Virus record (IMG/VR): IMGVR_UViG_3300040960_001334
Coordinates: 1-35,083 of that record
Direction: 5' to 3' (one strand)
Source of the DNA: a virus
DNA length: 35,083 nt
Shown one piece after another: positions 21,398 through 24,347 of the stretch. The position numbers and the translations under genes are program-made. A model generated the notes under the pieces. It was given only the letters and a program-made list of their open reading frames with translations. It was not told where the DNA came from and ran no database searches. How positions within the stretch are numbered: position 1 is the stretch's first letter; each line of letters starts with the position of its first letter.

Positions 21398-21808
21398 ATG
21401 GCAGAACAAGCAGGTAAGGACATGCTGTTGTATGTCAGCGATGGTATGTCCGGTTGGACGGTCTTCGCTGGCTTGCGCCCCACTCGTATCGCACTGAACC
21501 GCGAAACTGTGGACATTACCAACAAGGACAGCACCAACCACTTCCGTGAACTGTTGAAGGCAGCAGGCGTTAAGTCATGCTCATTTGCAGGCGGTGGCGT
21601 TTTTCTTGATGCGGCTGTTGATGAAACAGTCCGTGCGGATTTCTTCGCTGACACTGAAACCGACTATCGGGTTCTGGTGCCTGACTTCGGCACATTTGAT
21701 GGTGCGTTTCAGATCACCAACCTGGAGTTTGAAGGCGACTACAATACGGCGGTCAACTTCACCATCCAGCTTGAGAGTGCAGGCGACCTGACCTTCACTT
21801 CGGTATAG
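21398..21808 (+). CDS. Major tail tube protein (TP901-1 type)
   Basis: A 136-residue protein. GKDMLLYVSDGMSGWTVFAG, then LRPTRIALNRETVDITNKD and a beta-rich end (ITNLEFEGDYNTAVNFTIQL) match the TP901-1/GTA tail tube family. It polymerises into the tail tube around the tape measure. It has its own GGAG site and is followed closely by the chaperone genes. Confidence 0.92.
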   Translation: MAEQAGKDMLLYVSDGMSGWTVFAGLRPTRIALNRETVDITNKDSTNHFRELLKAAGVKSCSFAGGGVFLDAAVDETVRADFFADTETDYRVLVPDFGTFDGAFQITNLEFEGDYNTAVNFTIQLESAGDLTFTSV

Positions 21809-21815
21809 GTGACAC

Positions 21816-22157
21816 ATGGCGAACGCAAGAGGGACAGTTCACCTAGTCATCGGTGGTAAGAAACGCGGCTTCAAGGCTTCATTTGAAAACATCGTTGCAA
21901 TTGAGCAAACAACTGGCAAAGCAATTTTCCGGCTGGCTCAAGATGCCGCAACGATGGAGATGTCGCTGGCAGAGATTACCCAAATTCTCCATTCATCCAT
22001 GATGGGGACTAACGTGCCGGACATTGAGAAGTTCGGTCCCCAGGTCTTCAAGCTGGGCATTGTCAATGTTATGCCCACGGTGGTTGAAATTCTAACCAGT
22101 GCCATAAGCACTGGCGAAGAAGAAACGGGAAACGAAGAAGGGGCGGAGAACGAATAG
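21816..22157 (+). CDS. Tail assembly chaperone, upstream frame (GTA gp10-like)
   Basis: A 113-residue protein. Residues 1-95 (GTVHLVIGGKKRGFKASFEN; then TTGKAIFRLAQDAATMEMSL and a PDIEKFGPQVFKLG segment) match the gene-transfer-agent gp10 chaperone family. The acidic tail (STGEEETGNEEGAENE) contains the slippery heptamer at 22127-22133. Normal termination gives this short form, the counterpart of lambda G. A -1 shift gives the longer form joined to the next frame. Confidence 0.9.
   Translation: MANARGTVHLVIGGKKRGFKASFENIVAIEQTTGKAIFRLAQDAATMEMSLAEITQILHSSMMGTNVPDIEKFGPQVFKLGIVNVMPTVVEILTSAISTGEEETGNEEGAENE
22127..22133 (+). promoter_or_regulatory. Programmed -1 frameshift site G GGA AAC
   Basis: In the chaperone frame the codons are ACG GGA AAC, so the heptamer reads G_GGA_AAC: the XXXYYYZ form with Z = C, one base different from lambda's GGGAAAG. 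A shift back by one base continues in the frame of the next ORF, which is open from 22088 across 22178 to 22369. This mirrors the lambda G-GT tail chaperone arrangement. Confidence 0.88.
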
Positions 22158-22369
22158 ACCCCGATGCACCCTTCCCAATGCGTCGGATGATGCAAATTGG
22201 AATGGGTGTGATGGGGTGGCCTCCGTCCGAGTTCTGGCAGGCGACACCATATGAGCTATATGCCGCCGTTGAAGGGTGGCAAGAAGCGAACGGCGGTGGC
22301 GGGGAAGACAAATACCCGGACCGCGAAAGCATTGAGGATTTGGTGGTAGAATATGGCGACGGAACTTGA
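22133..22369 (+). CDS. Tail assembly chaperone, shifted frame (T part; TIGR02216-like)
   Basis: Reached by the -1 shift, this frame runs from 22133 and encodes RRRGGERIDPDAPFP, then MRRMMQIGMGVMGWPPSEFW and QATPYELYAAVEGW, ending in DLVVEYGDGT. The family usually begins with a 'fpW.rlm..gl..L..sP.eFw..tp.El' pattern; the FP lies before the only ATG (22178), which has no ribosome site, so entry by frameshift is more likely than independent start. The end overlaps the tape measure start by 17 bases. Confidence 0.82.
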   Translation, partial: RRRGGERIDPDAPFPMRRMMQIGMGVMGWPPSEFWQATPYELYAAVEGWQEANGGGGEDKYPDRESIEDLVVEYGDGT

Positions 22370-24347
22370 AAAGATTGTTATCCGCGTTGAGGCGGATTTA
22401 GCCACCCTGAAAAAAGGGCTGGTTGACGGCGAACGCCAGACCAAGACTTCATCCGAAAAGATGGCGGCATCACTTGAGAAGATCGGTGGTACTGCTGCGC
22501 GTGTTGGTAAGACTGTTGGCACTATGGGCCTTGCGGCTGCTGCTGGTTTGGCAGTTCTTTCCAGACGCGGCCTTGAAACAGCAGATGCCATAGACAAAAG
22601 TTCCAAAACGGCGAACATTTCCACCAAAGCATTTCAGGAATTATCGTTCGCGGCATCACTGGCAGGGTTGAGCCAACAGCAGCTTTCTATTGCTCTGGAA
22701 AGTTTCAACCGGCGCTCAGGGCTTGCCAAAGACGGCAACGAAACATATCTCAAAACGCTTAAGACCCTGAAAGTAGATCTGCGTGAAGCTGGCGGCGCAT
22801 TTAAGTCAACTGAACAGTTGATGGAAGAAAGCCTGGTTGCGCTTGCCAAGATTGATGATGCCGCATTACAGGCAGCACATGCATCGGTGATCTTTGGCGA
22901 TGATGCAGGCAAGCGGCTTCCATTGTTGCTGAAAGACGGCATTCAAGGCTTGGAACAAATGCGTAAACGTGCCCACGAATTAGGCATTGTTCTTGATGAT
23001 GGGTTGATTGGCAAATCAGTGCAGGCCAAAGATACGTTGACCGGGTTGCAATTCGTTCTTGAGAACAAGTTGGCCGTGGCTGTTGCCGAAAATGCGGGGG
23101 CAATTGAACAGCTAGCAAGTGCCGCAACTACTGTAATTCCAAAACTTATAGACGCAACGCTTGCAGCGTTAGAGCTTCTGCGCGTTGTTGATATGAGCCC
23201 AGAACGCTTGCTTAAATCCATTAACGTCAGCATGGCAAGTGGAACTGGATTTACAAGGGCGCAGCTTGAGAGTGCCAAAGCACTCGGCGTTAACCTTTAT
23301 TCAGCAATGCCTAGTGTTAAAGAAAGGATAAGAAATGAAGCTAGTTTTAAAGGTCCTATAAACCCCGTTAAGGTTGACCCGATCATCGCAGAGCTACAGC
23401 AGATTGTAGACGAAAGAGCAGCAGCAGCCGATGCACTTAGAGCAATCACAACTGGTACAGGCGGCGGTGATGGTGGTGGCAGCTTTTCCGAGAACCTTCG
23501 CAAGTCTGCGGAGAAATTCACACCAAAACAGAGCGATAGGAAAGACCTTTCGTTTGAGACTGTTGAAAATGCATTTCAACGCAACACAGAAATTCTGGAA
23601 ATGCAGAAGCAGTTAAACGAAGAACTGCTAAAAGCACAAGGCACGGATGAAAGCCGGTTGGAATTGCTCGCCGCCCAGCAGGCAGGGCGCAAACAAGAAC
23701 TTCAATTCATGTTGGCTGCATCTGATCTAGCGCCGGAGTTGAAGCAGCAGTTGCTTGATACGCTTGATGCTTTAGCGAATGTTGAACTGGACAATCTGAA
23801 GACTGAACTGCAAGACGCCAAAGACGCAGCCAATGGCCTTGGTGATAGCCTGAACCAAGCGTTCCAGAACGCGGTATTGAACGGTGAGAATTTCATCAAG
23901 GTTCTCGGGCGTATGCTCAAGCAGGTTATCTTGTTCGGGCAAGACGGCAAGGGCGGCATCTTCGGTGGTTTGCTGAATGGCATCTTCGGAAAGGTTGGCG
24001 ATTTCTTCGGTGATGGTATTGGTGGGCTGTTTGGGTTTGCTGAAGGTGGTCGGCCTATGCCCCGCCGTGCTGCTGTAGTGGGTGAAAATGGGCCAGAACT
24101 ATTCATTCCCGACAGCAGCGGCACCGTCTATAACAACCGCGAGTTCGGGTCAATGATGCGCCCGCAAGGCCAAGGCATCATTCAGCACTGGGTGCTTGAG
24201 CAAAACATTCATTTTGACACTACGCTAGAAAGCGTTGATACGCGTATTGCACAGGCAACGCCACGGCTTGTTGAAGCATCCAAATCGGCTGTACAGGACG
24301 CCATGCAGCGAGGCGGCGGCTTCGCGTCAACTGTGAGAGGATACTAA
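22353..24347 (+). CDS. Tail tape measure protein
   Basis: A 664-residue, mostly helical protein. The N-terminal LEKIVIRVEADLATLKKGLV helix, a Gly/Ala hydrophobic segment (GLAAAAGLAVL), DAIDKSSKTANISTKAFQEL and long charged helices follow the tape measure layout. Near the C-end is a second glycine-rich hydrophobic part (FGGLLNGIFGKVGDFFGDGI) and GENGPELFIPDSSG, a frequent ending. At about 0.15 nm per residue it would set a tail of roughly 100 nm. Confidence 0.95.
   Translation: MATELEKIVIRVEADLATLKKGLVDGERQTKTSSEKMAASLEKIGGTAARVGKTVGTMGLAAAAGLAVLSRRGLETADAIDKSSKTANISTKAFQELSFAASLAGLSQQQLSIALESFNRRSGLAKDGNETYLKTLKTLKVDLREAGGAFKSTEQLMEESLVALAKIDDAALQAAHASVIFGDDAGKRLPLLLKDGIQGLEQMRKRAHELGIVLDDGLIGKSVQAKDTLTGLQFVLENKLAVAVAENAGAIEQLASAATTVIPKLIDATLAALELLRVVDMSPERLLKSINVSMASGTGFTRAQLESAKALGVNLYSAMPSVKERIRNEASFKGPINPVKVDPIIAELQQIVDERAAAADALRAITTGTGGGDGGGSFSENLRKSAEKFTPKQSDRKDLSFETVENAFQRNTEILEMQKQLNEELLKAQGTDESRLELLAAQQAGRKQELQFMLAASDLAPELKQQLLDTLDALANVELDNLKTELQDAKDAANGLGDSLNQAFQNAVLNGENFIKVLGRMLKQVILFGQDGKGGIFGGLLNGIFGKVGDFFGDGIGGLFGFAEGGRPMPRRAAVVGENGPELFIPDSSGTVYNNREFGSMMRPQGQGIIQHWVLEQNIHFDTTLESVDTRIAQATPRLVEASKSAVQDAMQRGGGFASTVRGY

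Follow-up and report, generated by a model that had tools for sequence, protein, structure and literature searches.

A putative lambda G/GT-like -1 frameshift joining the TAC_11 and TAC_6 tail chaperone frames of a virus, with varied counterparts in gene transfer agents

Two overlapping reading frames in the tail region of the virus record IMGVR_UViG_3300040960_001334 (IMG/VR) very probably form one gene encoding two proteins by programmed -1 ribosomal frameshifting, in the manner of the phage lambda tail genes G and G-T (PMC5009743, review). The sequence arrangement, a switch of coding frame at a slippery heptamer between close variants, and conservation in relatives are direct observations. 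The stretch analysed, hereafter the window, is 35,083 bases long and carries terminase, portal, capsid, prohead protease and tail genes; the parts of the chaperone region described below lie on its plus strand. The chaperone pair occupies the lambda-type position between the tail tube and tape measure genes: its upstream neighbour encodes the major tail tube protein (21398..21808; PF06199 Phage_tail_2, E 3.2e-35), and the gene for the tail length tape measure protein (22353..24347; phrog_9483, E 3.5e-24) follows directly, starting before the -1 frame has ended. Many relatives (L013-L039) have an extra open reading frame of about 82-98 residues, often starting with MAW, between the tube and the first chaperone, which the window lacks.

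The 0-frame chaperone TAC_11 (PF11836; the 'G' product, 113 residues) spans 21816..22157 and ends with TAG at 22155-22157. The heptamer GGGAAAC at 22127-22133 is read in this frame as ACG GGA AAC, the X_XXY_YYZ phase that the initial annotation had assigned to it, and the -1 frame is, as also claimed there, open across the TAC_11 stop, being free of stops from 22088 to 22366 with its own stop ending at 22369. The stretch from the heptamer to the 0-frame stop (22127..22157) would be doubly coding, and the -1 frame extension, TAC_6 (PF09550/TIGR02216; the 'T' part, 22133..22369), would add 78 residues after the shift. In the structural genes of the window, in-phase XXXYYYZ sites of the A/T-type (Y = A or T) occur 5 times per 3452 codon positions, and by an arithmetic estimate about 0.03 in-phase heptamers would be expected by chance within the overlap. 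The heptamer alone is weak evidence, of modest weight, and the relatives make the case. No strong stimulatory RNA structure was found downstream of it (z -1.0 to -1.5), nor a good Shine-Dalgarno-like stimulator upstream, and a search of the DNA of this region in named phages gave zero matches. The heptamer and the open -1 frame could be coincidental, or a single gene could have been split by a sequencing error; in-phase GGGAAAG/GGGAAAC does occur twice elsewhere in the tail genes of the window (25702 and 27453, probably by chance), but independent metagenomes yielded contigs with the same layout, which dozens of diverged phages also show, and we regard this explanation as extremely improbable.

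If the ribosome shifts here, most ribosomes would end at 22155-22157 and release the 113-residue TAC_11 chaperone, and a minority would slip back by one base on G_GGA_AAC. Tandem re-pairing would move the P-site codon from GGA to GGG and the A-site codon from AAC to AAA, the next codon would be CGA at 22133, and the predicted product is a fusion of 106+78 = 184 residues that includes the TAC_6 domain, with the junction ...EEETGN-RRRGGERID.... By analogy with lambda G/GT, many short chaperones would coat the tape measure protein and the few fusions would bring in the tail tube subunit, which would make the ratio of short form to fusion important for tail assembly. We infer the occurrence of the shift, its efficiency and the roles of the two chaperones. 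Transcriptional slippage could in principle yield the same fusion, and some relatives have long A runs (e.g. L035) at which polymerase slippage could contribute; the window, however, has no run of at least five identical bases within 22088-22369, and G_GGA_AAC shows the layout of a tandem slip. Slippage of the polymerase was rejected for the window on the lack of a homopolymer run, its probability being close to nil.

Both parts of the proposed frameshift product belong to tail chaperone families. TAC_11 passes the gathering cut-off of PF11836 (36.9 bits against 27.8, E 3.9e-9) and TAC_6 that of PF09550 (38.2 bits against 23.4, E 1.9e-9). The downstream domain had been described as resembling TIGR02216 of gene transfer agents (GTAs); the PF09550 match agrees with this, but the TIGR02216 score of 33.5 bits stays below the curated cut-off of 56.1, with all 58 model positions aligned. 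Structures were predicted from alignments of the window with the fetched contigs. The AlphaFold2 model of TAC_11 is confident (pLDDT 87.7), and its best match among 242 PDB chains compared was the HK97 tail assembly chaperone 2OB9, with a middling Z of 5.6 over 80 residues at 4.4 A; 3KLU (YqbN) and 3D8L (ORF12 of lactococcal phage p2) followed at lower Z, amid unrelated entries. Foldseek gave no significant match for this model in the PDB, and a probability of about 1 against predicted viral proteins named tail assembly chaperone. The predicted TAC_11 domain thus appears to resemble the HK97 chaperone, as support rather than proof. TAC_6 is modelled as a small helical domain (pLDDT 83.5). By sequence, TAC_11 had no match in the PDB, and the only low-E match of TAC_6, a designed protein aligned over 19 positions, was disregarded.

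The main rival to frameshifting is that TAC_6 is a separate protein, re-initiated at the first -1 frame ATG (22178..22180), or at 22187 or 22190, about 20 bases past the TAC_11 stop. An in-frame ATG close behind that stop, a predicted first helix of TAC_6 that starts at the residue of ATG 22178, and an own TAC_6 start adjoining the core in GTA clusters of Rhodobacterales, Afipia and Pseudolabrys all speak for it. Against this, no candidate TAC_6 start has a convincing Shine-Dalgarno sequence: the energies at 22178, 22187 and 22190 were 0, 0 and -1.1 kcal/mol, and the other nearby starts tested gave -3.4 to -10.7 kcal/mol. The initial annotation was right that ATG 22178 lacks a ribosome site, and that the Phe-Pro codons (22172-22177) precede it, but it erred in calling this ATG the only one, as it is the first of five (22187, 22190, 22202 and 22211 lie inside the TAC_6 domain). 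In addition, the close variant L004 carries CTG in place of ATG 22178, and most relatives that bear a heptamer lack any start codon in the stretch from it to the domain. Together with the substitution pattern described next, these observations make re-initiation very unlikely.

The closest comparison involved the window and two variants, L003 and L004. Before the heptamer, TAC_11 third positions take 22 of the 23 substitutions between the window and the variants, and after the stop, third positions of the -1 frame take 17 of 25, changes common to both variants being counted twice. The 31 bases between heptamer and stop show zero changes among the three. Codon-periodic change in the -1 frame already begins upstream of ATG 22178 (at 22162, 22168 and 22177), which argues further against re-initiation there. 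Upstream of the heptamer, the changes at 22106 and 22112 fall on TAC_11 third positions and alter residues of the -1 frame, so no protein constraint is seen in this frame at that point. The heptamer is kept in every close relative, and none was found to have lost it with the downstream gene intact, the outcome that the initial annotation had named as contrary to its proposal.

To cover more distant relatives, loci were gathered through a tail tube alignment and through baseplate-region and named-phage searches, giving 203 loci with TAC_6, 207 with TAC_11 and 201 usable pairs, reduced to 154 by dereplication. In the chaperone tails, XXXYYYZ heptamers lie in the slippery phase in 77 of 110 viral and 29 of 34 bacterial cases. 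For A-type sites of viral loci the figures are 53/85 in the chaperone tail versus 7/25 in the domain body, where these sites have no phase preference (6/12/7). Since sites of all types in the viral domain body lean toward the slippery phase (20/24/57), cleaner controls come from the A-type and the bacterial comparisons. Presence of a heptamer was associated with absence of a start codon (63/22 versus 12/57, p ~1e-12 with kinship ignored). A- or T-type heptamers occur in 52 dereplicated loci. Of these, 17 have a -1 frame that becomes open precisely at the heptamer, 33 have one that opens no more than 15 nt away from it, and only 7 contain an ATG, GTG or TTG between heptamer and domain. Making the full domain in the 17 loci would therefore require a shift, unless translation starts at some codon outside ATG, GTG and TTG. 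Across the 154 pairs, in-phase heptamers are strongly enriched and for the most part stand in for a start codon. The tree shows deep divergence within the heptamer group; its automatic state labels are wrong for a few rows, L086 and L097 among them (AAACCCT with an incidental GTG), and its counts of state changes are therefore probably too high. In L142 and L147, TAC_11 and TAC_6 form a single continuous frame (a natural fusion or an assembly indel).

The bacterial loci arrange the same pair in other ways. GTA hallmarks (GTA_TIM, Rcc01698_C) were present in all three loci checked, and the tree groups most bacterial loci into a single clade of 100 rows (SH-aLRT 96), with the window placed outside. 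Within this clade, all Rhodobacterales loci, Afipia and most Pseudolabrys-type loci have an own TAC_6 start next to the core. A separate TAC_6 with its own start and no heptamer was seen in the Rhodobacterales GTA-like loci L112, L114, L123, L129, L131 and L141 and in the other GTA-like loci L067, L070, L078 and L081. In the remaining state of this clade, the -1 frame holds TAC_6, downstream of a conserved CCC-T (AAACCCT, GGACCCT, GGGCCCT or CCGCCCT); GTA-like loci of Hyphomicrobiales (Rhizobiales) with AAACCCTTGA, GGACCCT or GGGCCCT include L079, L097, L143, L176, L080, L108 and L100, among others. The CCC-T loci have a similar -1 frame peptide ahead of PFPW, often KPL.AAAG, GPLSAAAG or PPSAAAG, and among the 37 listed, 16 lack ATG, GTG and TTG from site to core, which favours shifting at these sites. 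As an alternative, where TTGA follows the CCC-T site, TAC_6 could begin at a TTG that overlaps the stop. Re-pairing of the first codon would be poor at GGACCCT and CCGCCCT. In a further group, TAC_11 runs into the core and ends PFPG.., TAC_6 has PFPW, and the underlying DNA, CCCTTTCCCTGG, forms a putative slip site inside the motif in L092, L126, L130, L159, L162, L205, L218, L230, L232, L240, L243 and L250. CCCTTT occurs in 9 of 12 read-through loci versus 3 of 34 own-start loci (p 3e-5, kinship ignored).

Hyphomicrobiales GTAs seem to retain the -1 shift at putative slip sites of the form N_NNC_CCU (often AAACCCTTGA) or C_CCU_UUC_CCU within the Pro-Phe-Pro-Trp motif. The same expression states were recovered from 289 evenly drawn alphaproteobacterial genomes. 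We lean toward the view that TAC_11/TAC_6 expression was rewired repeatedly, with A-type sites in phages, CCC-containing sites in Hyphomicrobiales GTAs and start codons in other GTAs. The initial annotation had also proposed checking gene transfer agents for the heptamer; from the more distant GTA clusters it is absent, its place being taken by a start codon or by another kind of slip site. We found no published account of a shift at CCC sites or of GTA rewiring in the literature searched, which was thin in subscription journals.

The proposed lambda G-GT mechanism is thus supported by phase, open frame, missing own start, protein families and relatives, all read from sequence. Lambda slips on the heptamer GGGAAAG. 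The window is like lambda G/GT in its place before the tape measure gene, the -1 direction, the class of heptamer, and a short chaperone with a fused extension; it differs in its families (PF11836/PF09550) and in a heptamer that ends in C rather than G. Xu, Hendrix and Duda reportedly described in 2004 a conserved frameshift arrangement in two-frame tail chaperones. HK97 and other two-frame chaperones share such an arrangement with the window, and the predicted TAC_11 fold may resemble that of the HK97 chaperone (2OB9), TAC_11 having no PDB sequence match. Genes g10 and g10.1 of RcGTA-type clusters are tail chaperones (PMC11409702, PMC9765227), and pfam11836 is present in g10 (PMC11409702). 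The first family is therefore common to the RcGTA-type g10 and the window, and in the GTA clusters read the two families follow each other as they do in the window; unlike the window, the Rhodobacterales GTA-like loci, a set that excludes RcGTA itself, lack the heptamer and give TAC_6 a separate start codon. A survey of Rhodobacter capsulatus phages describes frameshifting as usual for tail chaperone genes (PMC8601537), so for alphaproteobacterial phages the idea has precedent. In the window, the TAC_11/TAC_6 families take on the lambda G/GT arrangement, a kind already known.

For annotation, these results mean that the TAC_6 entry should describe one portion of a frameshift fusion rather than an orphan reading frame starting at 22178. 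If the shift works in GTAs, its slip-site type would be one for which the literature searched holds no description, and domesticated GTAs would still set the ratio of their two chaperones by recoding. The family comparison makes it testable whether GTAs have any need for a two-chaperone ratio, and for what reason certain lineages rely on a start codon where others have a frameshift.
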